A stretch of 5,123 bases of DNA. Origin: Acidobacteriota bacterium. Its GTDB lineage: Bacteria; Acidobacteriota; Blastocatellia; Pyrinomonadales; Pyrinomonadaceae. Position 1 is the stretch's first letter, and every line of letters begins with the position of its first letter. A program made the position numbers and the translations under genes. Location of the stretch: NCBI GenBank assembly GCA_029777145.1, contig JAKOSS010000828.1:1-5123 (forward strand), written 5' to 3'. Shown here piece by piece: positions 1 through 5,123 of this stretch. The notes beneath the pieces were generated by a model. That model was not told the origin of the DNA, made no database searches, and saw only the letters and a list, made by a program, of their open reading frames with translations.

Positions 1-1109
1 ACATCATCGGCGTCGAGCTTGAATTCCGCGCGGATCGCCTCCGGATCGGACGCAAGATCGTCCCGCAGCCCCGAGATCGAATGCGTGAAGAACCCGCGCT
101 CGGCCTCGGCCACGACGAATCCCGGCTCATGCCTCAGCCGTGTCACAAATCCTGACCAGCGCCAGTAATCGCGGATCCAGAAAAAGCCGGCAACGACCAA
201 AACGACGAGCAACGCGGCCGCAAGCACATTGAACGGCGTCAGCAACTTCGACTTTGACGCAGCGGCCTCACCGAGCTGCATCCGCAAACATCGTTCGAGG
301 ATCGGCCGTGCCGGCTCGAAGACGGCGGGATCGCCGCGAAAATTCTCCAATTCGGCATCGAAATCTAGTTCGACCTCCTCGATCGCTTCGACCAAAGTTT
401 CGCGCAGAGCGAGTGGTGCATTGCCACGGATCACCGCCGCCAGGATCGCGTCGGGTCCGTACTCGATCCAAACCGAAAGATCGCGAACCTTGAGCGAGTC
501 GAGAGTTGCGTCTTCCGACTCTTTGAATGAATCGTGGACGAAGTCCTGGATCGCGGTAAGCATCGCCGAGACCATGTCGCCGTCCTCGGCCGCCGACGGA
601 TCGACCGAAACATGCTGGAGCATCACGCCGGTCTCCTTGTGAATGAGAAAGACCTGTTCGACGCGGTAAAGCAGCGTGTGCAACAGAACGACTTCGGCAA
701 ACGGCTTGCCGGTCCGCATCGCCTCGACCCGCCACTTGACGCCTTCCGGCGAAAAACTGTGATCGAGCGTCTGGTTCAACGACTGAACCATCTGGCCGAG
801 CGCTTCGGCAATCGCCTTGCGGACGGCCGGGCCGATGATCGGGAAGATCGCCTCGGCGAGGATCCGCGGATTGCGAAGCGCCGACTGGCGGATGTTCTCC
901 TCGACGATCGGAAGCGTCGCCGCCGCCAGCGATTGGTCGCGGCGCGCACTCTTTCGGATCGCCGACGGAAGAATCTCGCTGACCGATTCCGACTCAACGA
1001 GAATTCGCCTCAGATCGGCAAGCCCGGCGTCGCCGTCTTCCGCTTCCGCTGGCTTCTGCTGCGTCTCGGTCAACTCCTCCGACACGGGATTGTCGGTCTC
1101 AAAGGGCAT
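1..1109 (-). CDS. OmpA-family-like membrane protein, N-terminal part (3' end beyond left edge)
   Basis: The first 369 residues are in the window; the reading frame is open to the left edge. Residues 1-30 are acidic and variable. Residues about 31-280 form a soluble domain with the stretches RNPRILAEAIFPIIGPAVRKAI (about 79-100) and PFAEVVLLHTLLYRVEQVFL (136-155), then an IQDFVHDSF motif (187-195). I recognise these from memory as the cytoplasmic domain of cyanobacterial proteins annotated 'OmpA family', which carry a peptidoglycan-binding OmpA domain at the C-terminus; that part is not in the window. Residues about 293-312 are one hydrophobic membrane segment, followed by WIRDYWRW and a domain that resembles the BON-like region of those homologues. 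There is no signal peptide, so the N-domain should be cytoplasmic. The start is secure: ATG at 1109 is the first start codon after an in-frame TAA 18 codons upstream. No clear ribosome site is visible. It follows the coiled-coil gene after 73 bases. Biochemical role unknown. Confidence 0.85.
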   Translation of the reverse strand, partial: MPFETDNPVSEELTETQQKPAEAEDGDAGLADLRRILVESESVSEILPSAIRKSARRDQSLAAATLPIVEENIRQSALRNPRILAEAIFPIIGPAVRKAIAEALGQMVQSLNQTLDHSFSPEGVKWRVEAMRTGKPFAEVVLLHTLLYRVEQVFLIHKETGVMLQHVSVDPSAAEDGDMVSAMLTAIQDFVHDSFKESEDATLDSLKVRDLSVWIEYGPDAILAAVIRGNAPLALRETLVEAIEEVELDFDAELENFRGDPAVFEPARPILERCLRMQLGEAAASKSKLLTPFNVLAAALLVVLVVAGFFWIRDYWRWSGFVTRLRHEPGFVVAEAERGFFTHSISGLRDDLASDPEAIRAEFKLDADD

Positions 1110-1182: not shown

Positions 1183-1737
1183 TCAATCCGCGTCGGGCAT
1201 CTTGAAATCGTTCGTCAACCGCATCGCCATTTCGGTGAAAAGTTCCGCCAGCGCCGTCCGGTCGGCCTTGTCATCGCGGATCTCCGAAGACTCGCGCTGG
1301 AGTGCCGAAAGCATGTCATTGTGACGCTTGTGGATCTCGTCCGAGAGATCCTTCGACTGCGCAAGGATCTGCTGGCGAAGATCGCTTTCGGACTTCGCGG
1401 CCTGCTCATCGATCGCGGTGACCTTTTTCTCGAACGCGTGCGATACGTCTTTCATGCCGTCCGACAACGACTTCACGGCATCCGTCCGCGCATTCTGCTC
1501 GCCCATCAGGCGGTCGGCAAGCGATTTCAGCTCGCCTTTCATGTAATTCTCGAGCGCGTCCAGTTTCTTGCGAACCTCGTCGCGCATGTCGCTGATCTCC
1601 GCCGACATCTTTTCTTCCATCCGCGAAAAGCGGCGTTCGAAATCGCGTGACTGCGATCCGAAGAGAATGTCGCGGATCTTGTCGATGTTACCGTCGTCGG
1701 CGCCGTCAGCGCCTGATGTCTTCTTCTGGGGTTTCAT
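1183..1737 (-). CDS. Conserved coiled-coil protein, partner of the OmpA-like protein
   Basis: This gene encodes 184 residues, highly charged and almost entirely helical. Residues 1-17 are a basic then Gly/Asp-rich tail. The segment NIDKIRDILFGSQSRDFERRF (about 17-37) looks like a conserved head. Residues about 30-165 show heptad-like spacing of Leu, Met, Ile and Ala between Glu, Lys, Arg and Asp, with no Pro or Cys, as in a long coiled coil. The C-terminus (ALAELFTEMAMRLTNDF) is a second conserved-looking block. There is no membrane segment or signal peptide, so it should be cytoplasmic and oligomeric. From memory, similar proteins are encoded beside OmpA-family genes in cyanobacteria and some other phyla, which fits the neighbour at 1109. 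Its start codon lies inside the kinase gene (32-base overlap), suggesting translational coupling; a weak GAG sits about 13 bases before the ATG. Function unknown; a scaffold or membrane-complex role is inference. Confidence 0.85.
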   Translation of the reverse strand: MKPQKKTSGADGADDGNIDKIRDILFGSQSRDFERRFSRMEEKMSAEISDMRDEVRKKLDALENYMKGELKSLADRLMGEQNARTDAVKSLSDGMKDVSHAFEKKVTAIDEQAAKSESDLRQQILAQSKDLSDEIHKRHNDMLSALQRESSEIRDDKADRTALAELFTEMAMRLTNDFKMPDAD

Positions 1738-3679
1738 AAATCAAATCCAACTCGCGCTTCAACTGCCTGAAATGGCCGTCGAGCCGCGAGACCATATCCG
1801 AGACGCTTCCGCCCGATGCGGCGGCGATCTCAAGTTCGGCGCAAAGATCGCGCATCGATCCGACACCGACGTTTGCACTGCTTCCTTTCAACGAATGCGC
1901 GCGACGCTTCACGTCGGACAGGTCGCCACGGTCGGCTGCCGACTGAATACTCGAGATCTCACCTGCAGTGAACCCTAAGTAAGTTTTATAGATCTCGGAT
2001 ATGAAGTTCGTCTCGCCGCGCGACTCGATCGTCAGAAAGCTTTCCAAGACTTCAGGGGTAACGTATTTGGACAATGAATGTTGAATTACTTTCGGACGCA
2101 AGTCAAGACTTGCGGGTTCGGGCGGATTCGCGAAGTGTCGTTCGAAAATAGTGGCTAAACCGTCTCTGGTCAACGGTTTGCATAGAAAATCGTCCATTCC
2201 GGCGGCGAGGCAGCGATCGCGTTCGGAGTCGGCCGTATGTGCCGTCAACGCGATGATCTTTGCTCGGCGGTTCGGTCCGCCGGATTCACGGATCTTCCGG
2301 GCGGCCGCGAATCCGTCAAGTTCCGGCATCTGACAATCCATGAAGATGAGATCAAAATTCTTCACGTGGGCGATCTCGACCGCCTTCGCGCCGTTCTCGG
2401 CCGAAGTCACCTTACAGCCCATCTGTTTGAGAAGCGCCGCGATGACCTCGGAGCTGATCTCATTGTCCTCGGCGAGGAGCACCCTGAATTTTCCGGGCGG
2501 ACTTTCCGAAACGTGAAGGCTTTCGATCGGATCTTCGGCCGCCGCGGCGCGTTCGAGCGGGACGCGGAACCAGAATCTCGATCCCTCTCCGACTTTGCTT
2601 TCAAATCCGATGGCGCCGTTCATCAGGCCGATCAGTTCGCGTGAGATCGCAAGACCAAGACCGGTTCCGCCGAACCTGCGGGTCGTCGACGCGTCGCCTT
2701 GGGTAAACGGTTGAAACAACAGCGACCCTTGCGTCTCGTTGATCCCGATCCCGGTGTCGGCGACCTCGAAGACGATCTCCGACTCGCCGAAAGCGCGCAC
2801 TGAAACCGCGACTGATCCCTCGACCGTGAATTTGACGGCGTTGCTGACGAGATTTCCGAGCACCTGCCGCAAGCGACCGGAATCGCCGCGAAAACTCGTC
2901 GCCAGATCCGGGTCAAGCTCGCTCGATAGACGAAGTCCTTTGGCTTCGGCCGCTGAACGGTGGACCGAGACGGTTTCGTCGAGCAGGTCCGCGAGATCGA
3001 AGACAACCGGACTCAATCGCAACTTGCCGGCCTCGATCTTCGAAAAATCGAGGATGTCGTTGACGATCTCGAGCAGCGACCCGATGCTGCGCTTGAGCAG
3101 ATCGACGTAATTCGCCTGTTCGGCGCTGAGTTCCGTGTCGGAAAGGAGGTTCGCGGTTCCGACGATCCCGCTCAGCGGTGTCCGGATCTCGTGACTCACG
3201 TTCGCGAGGAACGCGGCCTTTGTCCGGGCCGCCTCGAGCGCCGCGTCGCGGGCATCGGCAATCGCGCGCTCGACTTCCCGTCTCTGCGTCGCATCGCGAA
3301 ACGTGACGATCGTTCCGGCGACGCGCGGGCCGTCGAAGATCGGCTGGCACGCATATTCGACCTGGATCACGTTTCCGCCCGACCGCATGAAAACACCGTC
3401 GGGGACATGGGACGCCGCGCCTTCTGAGATCGCAAACTGGATGGGACAGACCGCCAGTTCGCTTTCGGAAGCGGTCTTGTCCTGGCCGAAAAACACGAGA
3501 TCGTACGGCCGACCGAGAAGATCGTCAGCCGCCGCGTCAAGCATCGCGCAGGCCGCGGAATTGATGAACGTAACGCGCCTCGACGCCTCAACGATCGCCA
3601 CCCCTTCGAGCAGCGAATCAAACAATGATCCGAGCGCCTCTCCGCGCGTCGAAAGCAATTTTTCGAGAGCCGGTTCCAT
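1706..3679 (-). CDS. Hybrid sensor histidine kinase, PAS-HisKA-HATPase-REC-HPt
   Basis: Complete, 657 residues. A PAS-like sensor domain spans about 15-130 (FINSAACAMLDAAADDLLGRP, then the FRDATQRRE exit). HisKA has the H-box SHEIRTPLSG with phospho-acceptor His163. The ATPase domain shows an N-box ending at Asn280, G1 box DTGIGI (308-313), F-box FQPFTQGD and G2 box GGTGLGLAIS (337-346). REC (about 399-510) has acidic Glu404/Asp405, phospho-acceptor Asp448 in FMDCQMPELDG, Thr479 and Lys501. HPt (about 540-640) has His595 in AHSLKGSSANVG. All catalytic residues are present, so a full His-Asp-His relay is expected, ending on a separate response regulator. There is no membrane segment or signal peptide: it is a cytoplasmic sensor, with the ligand unknown. 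The start at 3679 is the first start codon after an in-frame TAA only five codons upstream (3692-3694); no Shine-Dalgarno is visible. Its 3' end overlaps the coiled-coil gene, so it likely heads the operon. Confidence 0.95.
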   Translation of the reverse strand: MEPALEKLLSTRGEALGSLFDSLLEGVAIVEASRRVTFINSAACAMLDAAADDLLGRPYDLVFFGQDKTASESELAVCPIQFAISEGAASHVPDGVFMRSGGNVIQVEYACQPIFDGPRVAGTIVTFRDATQRREVERAIADARDAALEAARTKAAFLANVSHEIRTPLSGIVGTANLLSDTELSAEQANYVDLLKRSIGSLLEIVNDILDFSKIEAGKLRLSPVVFDLADLLDETVSVHRSAAEAKGLRLSSELDPDLATSFRGDSGRLRQVLGNLVSNAVKFTVEGSVAVSVRAFGESEIVFEVADTGIGINETQGSLLFQPFTQGDASTTRRFGGTGLGLAISRELIGLMNGAIGFESKVGEGSRFWFRVPLERAAAAEDPIESLHVSESPPGKFRVLLAEDNEISSEVIAALLKQMGCKVTSAENGAKAVEIAHVKNFDLIFMDCQMPELDGFAAARKIRESGGPNRRAKIIALTAHTADSERDRCLAAGMDDFLCKPLTRDGLATIFERHFANPPEPASLDLRPKVIQHSLSKYVTPEVLESFLTIESRGETNFISEIYKTYLGFTAGEISSIQSAADRGDLSDVKRRAHSLKGSSANVGVGSMRDLCAELEIAAASGGSVSDMVSRLDGHFRQLKRELDLIYETPEEDIRR

Positions 3680-3693
3680 GGTTACGTGCTTTT

Positions 3694-3722
3694 ACGATAA
3701 CGATTCGACCGGTGCTTGTAAA
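3694..3722 (-). promoter_or_regulatory. Sigma70-like promoter of the kinase operon
   Basis: Reading the minus strand, TTTACA (3722-3717; 5 of 6 to TTGACA) is followed after 17 bases by TATCGT (3699-3694; 4 of 6 to TATAAT). Transcription would begin near 3687, only about eight bases before the kinase ATG at 3679. The mRNA would be nearly leaderless, which agrees with the absence of a Shine-Dalgarno. The -35 element directly follows the U-tract of the upstream terminator. This is a consensus match by eye and could be fortuitous. Confidence 0.45.
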
Positions 3723-3723
3723 C

Positions 3724-3756
3724 AAAAAACGCGGAGCGAATTGAATCGCCCCGCGT
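3724..3756 (-). terminator. Rho-independent terminator
   Basis: On the minus strand, ACGCGGGGCGA (3756-3746) pairs with TCGCTCCGCGT (3739-3729) as an 11-bp stem with one G-U pair and a six-base loop. It is followed at once by six T residues (3729-3724), then G and TT. On the plus strand no T-run follows, so it acts only on minus-strand transcripts. It would end the candidate small RNA, or else the activator mRNA, and insulate the kinase operon from upstream transcription. Confidence 0.8.
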
Positions 3757-3765
3757 GTCGAAATC

Positions 3766-3810
3766 GCTCAGCCCCGAAGGGTCCTGACGGGACTGAGCTC
3801 CTGCGGACCC
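3766..3810 (-). other. Possible H-type RNA pseudoknot
   Basis: On the minus strand the order is GGGTCC (3810-3805), linker GCAGGA, GCTCAGTCCC (3798-3789), GTCA, GGACCC (3784-3779), TTC, GGGGCTGAGC (3775-3766). The two helices (6 and 10 bp) interleave as in a compact H-type pseudoknot; the linkers of 6, 4 and 3 bases look sterically possible. An AGGAG sequence lies in the first linker, but no start codon follows at a useful distance. It sits nine bases before the terminator stem, the position of an aptamer or stability element. GGGTCC could instead be unpaired with only the 10-bp hairpin formed. Confidence 0.4.
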
Positions 3811-3999
3811 TATGGGCTACCCCCGTCCCCATATTGCCGCATTCCGTTGAAATGCGGACCTAAAACGCAGCCCGCGCAAAAAACTGGATTGATGCCAAAA
3901 ACTTCCCGAATCCGAAGTTGACAACGGCGCCTTGTCCTCAAATTTCTCTGCCCCCAAAAAAAATCTCGGTCGCGGGCGCCGGTTGTCGCGAATATACGA

Positions 4000-4016
4000 T
4001 TCAATCGGCGTACCAA
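4000..4016 (-). promoter_or_regulatory. Sigma54-like (-24/-12) promoter
   Basis: Minus strand TTGGTACGCCGATTGAA matches the sigma54 consensus TTGGCACG-N4-TTGCA at all but two defined positions: C to T in the -24 element and, more seriously, C to A in the -12 GC. The GG (4014-4013) to -12 spacing is correct (N10). The predicted start is near 3989, just before helix P1. The pair of palindromes upstream sits at about -129 and -161, the usual range for activator sites. It was the best GG-N10-GC-type match I found in the interval. Confidence 0.4.
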
Positions 4017-4111
4017 AAATTCAGAAGATTGCGCATGCCGGCTAATTACTGCAGATGATGGACTTACGGGAGGACGTTTAAGTTTGTGAATGCGCCGGGC
4101 GGCGAAATACA

Positions 4112-4124
4112 TGACAACATGTCA
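4112..4124. promoter_or_regulatory. Palindromic activator-type site 1
   Basis: TGACA-ACA-TGTCA is a perfect 5-3-5 inverted repeat. It is one of two such sites with centres 32 bp apart (4118 and 4150), about three helical turns, so both face the same side of the DNA. The 5-3-5 geometry is that of known sites for Fis-type helix-turn-helix sigma54 activators such as LuxO. The protein encoded immediately beside it is such an activator, so autologous binding is the simplest inference. Confidence 0.6.
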
Positions 4125-4143
4125 GACAATTCGACACGCTGCC

Positions 4144-4156
4144 TGACAGAATGTCA
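4144..4156. promoter_or_regulatory. Palindromic activator-type site 2
   Basis: TGACA-GAA-TGTCA repeats the half-sites of site 1 with a different three-base spacer. It overlaps the activator gene's TGA stop (4154-4156). With flanks, CATGACAACATGTCAG (4110-4125) and CTGACAGAATGTCATG (4143-4158) are also inverted copies of each other, 13 of 16 positions matching. Conserved half-sites with a varied spacer are what a dimeric binding protein would leave. Confidence 0.6.
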
Positions 4157-5123
4157 TGTTTCGGATTCATATTCGGCGAGTTTCCGGTAAAGCGTGCGTG
4201 ACGTGATTCCAAGGATCACGGCCGCCCGTTCACGATGTCCGCCGGTCGATTCGAGGACATTGAGGATATGCCGGCGTTCGAGTTCGGCCAGCGTCGGCGG
4301 CGGAGTCGCCGTTCGAGATTCGGTGACGTCCGGCTCAAAGTTCGAGATGTGCAGATCCTCGATGCAATCGATGACGTCGTCGTGGGTCAGTGCCGCCGAG
4401 CGCTCAAGCACGTTGCGGAGTTCGCGGATGTTCCCCGGCCACTGATGCTCCATGATCTGCCGTTTCGCGTTTGGCGAGAATGTCAGGCGGGGTCGGTTGA
4501 AACGGATCCGGAGACGCTCGACAAAGGAATCAACGAGCGCCGGAATGTCTTCGCGGCGTTCGCGGAGTGGCGGCAAGCGGAACGAGACGACGTTGAGACG
4601 GTAGTAAAGGTCCATGCGGAACCTGCTTTCCCGAACCTCGGACTCAAGGTCCTTGTTCGTGGCCGCGATGACGCGCACCGACGCGCGCCGGTCGCGGTTC
4701 GATCCGACCGGTCGAAATGCCCCGTTTTCAAGGAAATGCAGGAGCTTGACCTGCATCACGAGCGGCATTTCGCCGATTTCATCGAGAAAAAGCGTCGATT
4801 CGTCGGCAGCCTCGATGATCCCCGTTTTCGCCGCCGTCGCACCGGTGAACGATCCTTTCTCGTGACCGAAGAACTCGGATTCGAAAAGATGTTCCGGCAG
4901 CGCGCCGCAATTGATCGAGACGAGCGGATGATCGGCCCGCGGGCTAAGCGCGTGGATCCAACGCGCCATGACATCCTTCCCGGTGCCGGACTCGCCGGTG
5001 ATGAGGATCGTCGTATCGAGCTTCGCGACGGTTTCGGCCTGTCCGAGAATGACGTTCATCACGGTGCTCGCGTGGACCGGTTTGACCGTGTAGCCCTCGT
5101 TCTGGCGTCGGACGGCGACGCGA
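4154..5123 (-). CDS. NtrC-family sigma54-dependent activator, C-terminal part (5' end beyond right edge)
   Basis: 322 residues lie in the window. The frame is open through the right edge; a GTG at 5062 is internal, since coding sequence continues upstream as a typical linker (RRQNEGYTVKPVHAST). Numbering from the window edge: Walker A GESGTGKD (43-50), the sigma54-contacting loop as GSFTGA instead of the usual GAFTGA (90-95), Walker B LFLDEIGEM (111-119), sensor I region ATNKDL (154-159), arginine-finger region FRMDLYYRLN (168-177), sensor II WPGNIRELRNVLER (228-241). A variable linker rich in Thr and Pro (about 265-278) leads to a Fis-type helix-turn-helix (about 282-320, ERAAVILGITSRTLYRKL). 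The protein hydrolyses ATP to remodel sigma54 RNA polymerase into open complex from distant DNA sites. The missing N-terminus decides its input: a receiver domain is most common but is not visible. Two palindromes at its 3' end are plausible own binding sites. Confidence 0.95.
   Translation of the reverse strand, partial: RVAVRRQNEGYTVKPVHASTVMNVILGQAETVAKLDTTILITGESGTGKDVMARWIHALSPRADHPLVSINCGALPEHLFESEFFGHEKGSFTGATAAKTGIIEAADESTLFLDEIGEMPLVMQVKLLHFLENGAFRPVGSNRDRRASVRVIAATNKDLESEVRESRFRMDLYYRLNVVSFRLPPLRERREDIPALVDSFVERLRIRFNRPRLTFSPNAKRQIMEHQWPGNIRELRNVLERSAALTHDDVIDCIEDLHISNFEPDVTESRTATPPPTLAELERRHILNVLESTGGHRERAAVILGITSRTLYRKLAEYESET

Follow-up and report, generated by a model that had tools for sequence, protein, structure and literature searches.

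The interval between a sigma54 activator gene and a hybrid histidine kinase gene of an Acidobacteriota bacterium very likely holds a conserved small RNA (sRNA) gene, as judged by comparing its sequence with those of its relatives. The window, meaning the whole 5,123-nt stretch of DNA analysed (contig JAKOSS010000828.1 of assembly GCA_029777145.1), carries the predicted RNA, about 266 nt long, on its minus strand (3724..3989). The RNA is probably sigma54-dependent and regulatory, the first of a new family that would be paired with its own activator and feed back on the activator mRNA. This interpretation is supported by the retention of the interval in relatives, by helices that covary and by the lack of a matching Rfam family.

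All of the genes in the window that hold up lie on the minus strand. The sigma54 activator gene is represented by its 3′ part (4154..5122), which encodes an AAA+ domain, an AAA lid and a Fis-type HTH (Pfam Sigma54_activat, 1.3e-66; HTH_8, 1.9e-14). It is cut by the window end, its N-terminal part lying outside; the full-length relative in locus L091 reads REC–AAA+–Fis HTH, so a receiver domain is present there. A gap of 474 bases separates the activator from the hybrid histidine kinase (PAS–HisKA–HATPase–REC–Hpt by Pfam; 1706..3679), which is likely to be the partner of the adjacent activator. The next gene, conserved in relatives, encodes a coiled-coil-like protein (1183..1737) and is followed by the N-terminal part of a membrane-like protein (3..1109), in whose relatives a region near the C-terminus gives a weak OmpA-like match, and for which no relative was found in the PDB at E ≤ 0.01. 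The order of activator, gap, kinase, coiled-coil protein and membrane-like protein is kept in nine of nine related loci, in all of which a Ras-like GTPase gene (domain read on L091) comes next. An earlier note, made from the window sequence, had named as a check on its reading the alignment of the interval from genomes with the same activator–kinase order; the elements recur in 9/9 relatives. In all ten gaps they come in one order: activating site or sites, TGG[C/T]AC-N5-TTG and a folded RNA with hairpins H1, H3 and H4. In the window all of them share the orientation of the activator gene; that note had described them as lying in one orientation beside it.

The upstream end is marked by two exact TGACA-N3-TGTCA palindromes, one (4144..4156) overlapping the activator stop codon (4154-4156) and the other at 4112..4124, with the start-to-start distance of 32 bp originally reported. 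Exact sites occur at 0.004 per shuffled window, and two within 60 bp were seen in 0 of 3,000 single-base shuffles. Measured from their centres, the predicted start at 3989 is 129 and 161 bases away, so the 130–160 bases of the earlier note fit the start site; the sites begin 109 and 141 bases before the −24 element. The −24/−12-like promoter that the earlier note placed downstream of them is at chance level from the window alone: TGGTACGCCGATTGAA (4000..4015, minus strand; predicted start about 3989) has two mismatches against TGGCAC-N5-TTGCA, its −12 half, TTGAA, is off consensus, and it ties for the top promoter score within the window, where 11 matches at three mismatches or fewer compare with 9.1 expected. 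The promoter is convincing only because the motif recurs at the equivalent place in nine of nine relatives. With the window included, TGG[C/T]AC-N5-TTG is found at the matching position in 10/10 loci, and of the relatives eight have TGGCAC-N5-TTG and one has TGGTAC-N5-TTG.

The activating sites are held at a similarly constant distance. When one base is left free, every one of the ten loci has at least one site and eight have two or more. Relative to the −24 element, the first begins at −139 to −143 in nine loci and at −165 in L094; a further site begins at −107 to −112 in eight, and L093 and L094 have a single clear site each. We searched nine genomes for two exact 12-base half-open palindromes 16–24 bases apart. 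Such pairs occur in seven of the nine, each time only at the RNA locus, and a reversed-pattern control gave 0. A search for one site with TGGYAC-N5-TT 70–130 bases on returned 13 rows from seven of the nine genomes, 12 of them at the RNA locus. From these genome-wide searches with exact sites, TGACA-N3-TGTCA appears to serve mainly the RNA, and we infer that it is bound by the product of the adjoining activator gene. RpoN was found in the genomes of seven of the nine relatives and was not found in the other two (G399 and G404).

The thirteenth row lies elsewhere in genome G406, where two palindromes, closer together than at the RNA locus, precede a gene for a 211-residue protein (L188:3521-4156, minus strand; G406:C5, sites near 316238-316349) and are accompanied by a TGGCAC-N5-TTG promoter. 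The protein is hydrophobic at its N-terminus and Pfam shows no convincing domain in it; the same activator may control its gene as a protein-coding target.

Downstream of the promoter, the sequence from 3989 to 3724 on the minus strand folds with a minimum free energy of −115.6 kcal/mol (z = −4.84; 0 of 200 shuffles as low), with a stronger signal in the 3′ half (z = −5.6) than in the 5′ half (z = −2.1). The z scores of the full RNAs range from −4.8 to −10.4 in the five of ten that were folded. Over aligned columns the RNA is 46–63% identical to the window in the relatives, rising to 89% in L091. We judged covariation by counting pairs, with shuffled columns and shifted strands as controls, on a small alignment of ten sequences, two of which are close kin.

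Hairpin H1 (3920..3987, minus strand; loop region TTGGGGGCAGAG, with GGGGG at 3951-3955) begins at the predicted start site. The 12-bp long-range stem of the earlier note starts, as described there, at base 3 of the RNA, with one base bulged. Across the loci the stem varies while GGGGGC stays constant in 10/10: 8 of the 11 pairs of the outer helix show compensatory change, 80.6% of cells are paired, the covariation score is reached by none of 500 column shuffles, and shifting the partner strand lowers pairing to 38–49%. H4 (3766..3798, minus strand), whose loop carries the invariant GGACCCTTC, has an 11-bp helix in which all cells are paired in the ten sequences and 7/11 pairs are compensated. 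One of five measures, that of further pair types, did not rise above shuffles in either of these two hairpins (260 and 164 of 500). H3 (3802..3841, minus strand; loop region ACGGGGGTAG, GGGGG at 3820-3824) contains GGGGGTAGCC, which is invariant in 10/10 loci and also served as the anchor by which the RNAs were located. The MAFFT alignment is wrong in the 3′ arm of H3, so the pairs of this hairpin were counted by hand pairing in a script: 48 of 50 cells of the outer helix are paired, and pairs 1, 3 and 5 have changed on both sides. The slide control is soft here, with 34/50 cells still paired at +2 (15 at +1 and 12 at −1). Support for the inner part of H3 is poor in the alignment (77.6% of cells paired, one of five pairs compensated). 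Alignment A3 is off by one base within the G5 run. Covariation among homologues, a check that the earlier note had set, is seen in H1, in H4 and for the outer pairs of H3. H2 is variable, with a run of four to six G at its tip in six of the ten loci; the window and L091 are among those without it. The G5 runs of H1 and H3 are present in all ten.

Two further pairings were computed for the loops. GGGGGU of H3 and ACCCUU of H4 would pair with about −8 kcal/mol, a contact that lies beyond the reach of covariation because both loops are invariant. Pairing of loops with the 3′ end of 16S rRNA was computed at −8.4 and −10 kcal/mol.

The distribution of the RNA follows that of the kinase, whose closest named relatives are from Acidobacteria, with Pyrinomonadaceae further down. 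Searches for the kinase covered the family and a sample of the phylum, and those with the RNA model covered the class. Among the best 80 kinase loci in genome contigs, identities were 33–49% and none was close. At E ≤ 1e-130, 396 phylum genomes gave two matches, G244 (81% identity, at L091) and G308 (47%), and at E ≤ 1e-120 the kinase was found in 9 of 119 genomes of the family of G244. We scanned 162 class genomes with R1, a covariance model of the 3′ domain of the RNA; ten reached E ≤ 0.01, nine of them at 72–97 bits with one locus each, always this locus. These nine are the same nine in which the family search (119 genomes) found the kinase, and only two of them appear among the 396 phylum genomes. 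It is highly improbable that the interval is regulatory DNA only, an enhancer, promoter and terminator that folds by chance. The sites and terminator would by nature be protein or polymerase signals, and folding by itself is weak evidence, but a DNA element of this kind would not account for compensatory changes in H1, H3 and H4, for invariant loops or for strong R1 matches limited to these loci.

Weaker matches were set aside. An R1 match in G492 (L109, 24.1 bits), a second one in G406 (L111, 24.6 bits) and opposite-strand matches over the locus itself (12–27 bits) were taken as chance hairpins. Matches of a 17-base core in viral contigs (L176 and L177; 17–19 bits, no cluster proteins at E ≤ 1e-3) were also attributed to chance, and a plasmid search with 3724-4156 gave no match.

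The RNA is predicted to end at an intrinsic terminator (3724..3756, minus strand), an 11-bp stem followed by T6. The strong terminator claimed at the outset is borne out by the hairpin at 3756-3729 with its T6, and a terminator is found in nine of the ten loci. In the tenth, L099 (1940-2110), the script used recognised none after H4; the rest of the RNA is kept. In another reading, the sigma54 promoter would drive the kinase, with the RNA as an attenuator or ligand sensor that gates read-through of the terminator. The kinase start does follow the end of the RNA by some tens of bases (45 in the window), with both in one direction, and the invariant loops of H3 and H4 could kiss, as may happen in aptamers. 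Support for a separate promoter of the kinase is slight: a possible sigma70-like one, TTTACA-N17-TATCGT (3694..3722, minus strand), is weak, and 9 of 12 matches are reached in five of ten loci, mostly not above shuffles. Against this, no terminator was recognised in L099, and Escherichia coli glmY–qseE, which has the same layout, shows virtually no read-through into qseE in the available part of the report (PMC6075780). We regard a kinase-operon leader as quite unlikely.

Beyond these loci, the membrane-like protein is more widespread (31/162 class genomes). We read 20 of the 22 RNA-less loci (L156-L175), four of which have less than 1 kb upstream on the contig. All 20 hold the trio of coiled-coil, membrane-like and GTPase genes together (cut by the contig in L156 and L157), and neither the activating sites nor the GGGGGTAGC core occurs in any of them. 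No activator was found upstream of the trio in the available sequence; two of the 20 have a sigma54-like string without an activator match, and the activator-like match in L164 (42% identity) and the kinase-like matches in several loci are all downstream of the trio. In the genome comparison, activator, RNA and kinase thus behave as a single cassette, placed next to a trio that occurs more widely.

The RNA had been called possibly undescribed, with an Rfam search as the check, and no family matches. None of the 4,227 families of Rfam 15 reaches its gathering score at the locus in the window or the seven relatives scanned (all but L096 and L097). The only match in the window at E ≤ 5 is AaHKsRNA41 (E = 4; 15.4 bits against a gathering score of 97), and at E ≤ 3 the only one at the locus in the seven relatives is ncS54, over H4 and the terminator of L093 (E = 1.2; 22.5 against 43). 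Membership of the Qrr, GlmY/GlmZ or CrcZ families, as far as Rfam 15 includes them, was rejected on scores below gathering. No description was found in the part of the matching open-licence PMC papers that was covered. For comparison, a 2022 compilation gives 4 distinct annotated sRNAs for Acidobacteria and 345 for Proteobacteria in the part available (PMC9029176, Table 1). A circuit of this type, a sigma54-dependent sRNA paired with its activator, is already known; as far as our searches show, this RNA with its loops is new to it, and so is the phylum of the host.

What the RNA might act on was approached through its G-rich loops. The activator start regions of L091 and L094 contain TGCCCCCA, the exact complement of TGGGGGCA, which L091 carries in H1 and L094 at the tip of H2. 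The activator start of L096 has CCCCCC and that of L093 has CTACCCC, complementary to part of the H3 loop; no C-run was found at those of L097 and L099. The activator start is off the contig in the window, L092, L095 and L098, which leaves six testable relatives. Three of these six have C5 (chance about 1.7e-5) and four have C4 or longer (about 4.5e-5), in a test made after the loops had been seen, with background rates from the same loci and before allowing for the five genes examined per cluster. In L091, the C-run touches the AGG just before the activator start codon, so pairing there should block translation.

On the 1.16-Mb contig of G308, the activator alone among 939 mechanically called genes has CCCCC at −45 to +12, although gene starts as a whole show no enrichment (1 seen, 2.7 expected for CCCCC; 3 seen, 3.4 expected for TGCCCC, with 7 for its complement). 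By duplex energy the activator ranks fourth for the H1 loop and joint second for the H3 loop, and is the only gene in both top-six lists. The duplex of the L096 activator start with H1 does not stand out from shuffles (100/500), and that with H3 is matched by 4/500. C5 starts were found elsewhere in 2 of 247 genes of a G403 sample and 6 of 334 of a G426 sample. An initial look at the clusters put 10 of 41 gene starts at three or fewer of 100 shuffles: two are activator starts (L091 and L094) and eight belong to other genes, namely kinase (L095 and L096), coiled-coil (L096 and L097), membrane-like protein (L093, L094 and L098) and GTPase (L099). Because these other starts score too, the target may vary, and we lowered our confidence in the best explanation. 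On complementarity, negative feedback on the activator is still the most likely single function, at roughly even confidence.

In the G426 sample (G426:C79:1-400000; L267-L286), the six starts among 334 carry C5 or longer, and none carries G5. One start has CTACCCCCC, the complement of the H3 loop, and further targets are possible.

The same sRNA gene could also make a protein decoy, with its G5 loops binding a protein, as CrcZ binds Hfq/Crc in Pseudomonas, and the C-runs incidental. The G-run occurs two or three times per molecule while the stems change around it, Hfq is encoded in nine of nine relatives, and there is precedent in CrcZ and CrcY, which sequester Crc/Hfq under CbrB control according to the part of the source available (PMC8871633). 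Yet the G-rich H2 tip is missing from the window and from L091, the C-run at the activator start is improbable by chance, and CsrA, a candidate for binding GGA, was found in just five of the nine RNA-carrying genomes, of which the other four may be incomplete. We tentatively disfavour a CsrA sponge on that count of genomes, and consider a decoy in general unlikely.

Under the preferred reading, a regulatory sRNA that base-pairs, the circuit would run as follows. The hybrid kinase would hand phosphate on to the NtrC-type activator encoded next to it, at the activator's receiver domain. The activator would bind TGACA-N3-TGTCA at and just past the stop codon of its own gene and, through looping of the DNA, open an RpoN promoter about 110–140 bases downstream, as the conserved sites and their spacing suggest. 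An RNA of about 260–325 bases would then be made, ending at the terminator before the kinase gene and displaying GGGGGC(A) in H1 and GGGGGUAG in H3, with the G-run of the H2 tip also displayed in six of the nine relatives. The G-rich loops, perhaps assisted by Hfq, may pair with C-runs at ribosome-binding regions. The mRNA of the activator itself is the best-supported candidate and would give negative feedback; other genes of the cluster are possible targets.

Activator-paired sigma54 sRNAs are known from Gammaproteobacteria, among them that of LuxO, which is fed by hybrid kinases and an Hpt relay, and that of CbrB in Pseudomonas, where crcZ lies just after cbrB and its RNA has repeated exposed motifs that are CA-rich. 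The analogy of the earlier note to Vibrio luxO–qrr1, a sigma54 sRNA that adjoins its activator gene, is a good one, and extends to the format of the sites and to complementarity between loops and activator mRNA. Both systems have an NtrC-type activator, an sRNA that is sigma54-dependent in Vibrio and predicted to be so here, and 13-bp 5-3-5 palindromes, that of LuxO being given as TTGCA-WWW-TGCAA in the part of the report available (PMC10162802), and the predicted pairing parallels that of Qrr, which is described, in what is available of the source, as pairing with luxO mRNA and reducing it (PMC4211561). They differ in that no Rfam family matches, so that the sequence and fold of the RNA are different, and in that here the sites overlap the 3′ end of the activator gene with the RNA downstream, the kinase gene adjoins and the phylum is another.

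An equally close parallel is QseF–glmY. In Enterobacteriaceae, QseF/GlrR is likewise an activator made of REC, sigma54 domain and HTH with several activating sites and a sigma54 promoter, and the sRNA gene is directly followed by the kinase gene, which has its own sigma70 promoter (PMC6075780, in the part available). The same source gives the QseF sites as TGT-N12-ACA and places the activator gene last in the qseEGF operon, unlike here, and GlmY, unrelated to the present RNA by Rfam, is described in the accessible part of another report as a decoy for RapZ (PMC7073468). CbrB–crcZ/crcY shares an sRNA under a sigmaN-dependent NtrC-type activator, but the CbrB sites are non-palindromic as far as the available text describes them (PMC6296734), and CrcZ sequesters Crc/Hfq (PMC8871633, available part), whereas the present RNA has G5 runs. 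Within the phylum, Acido-1 and Acido-Lenti-1 are also structured noncoding RNAs; neither matches in the window or the seven relatives scanned, and the accessible part of their description mentions no sigma54 setting (PMC2864571).

If the proposed circuit is true, a soil phylum has a complete sRNA circuit, comprising sites, promoter, structure, terminator and predicted target, that has converged on the same feedback design as that of Vibrio. A more specific picture, which we hold tentatively and place a little on the doubtful side, is that this Acidobacteriota RNA family independently reached the wiring of Vibrio quorum sensing, with sites at the 3′ end of the activator's own gene, G5 loops that silence the activator message and a cassette upstream of an older trio; H3 and H4 may kiss and so gate the G5 run.

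At the downstream side of the cluster, ARAGORN places a tRNA-Met after the GTPase gene in six of eight loci scanned and finds no tRNA in L093. There, a group I intron-like Rfam match (L093:9155-9355; 47.2 bits against a cut-off of 50) lies at the position that tRNA-Met(CAT) occupies in the six.
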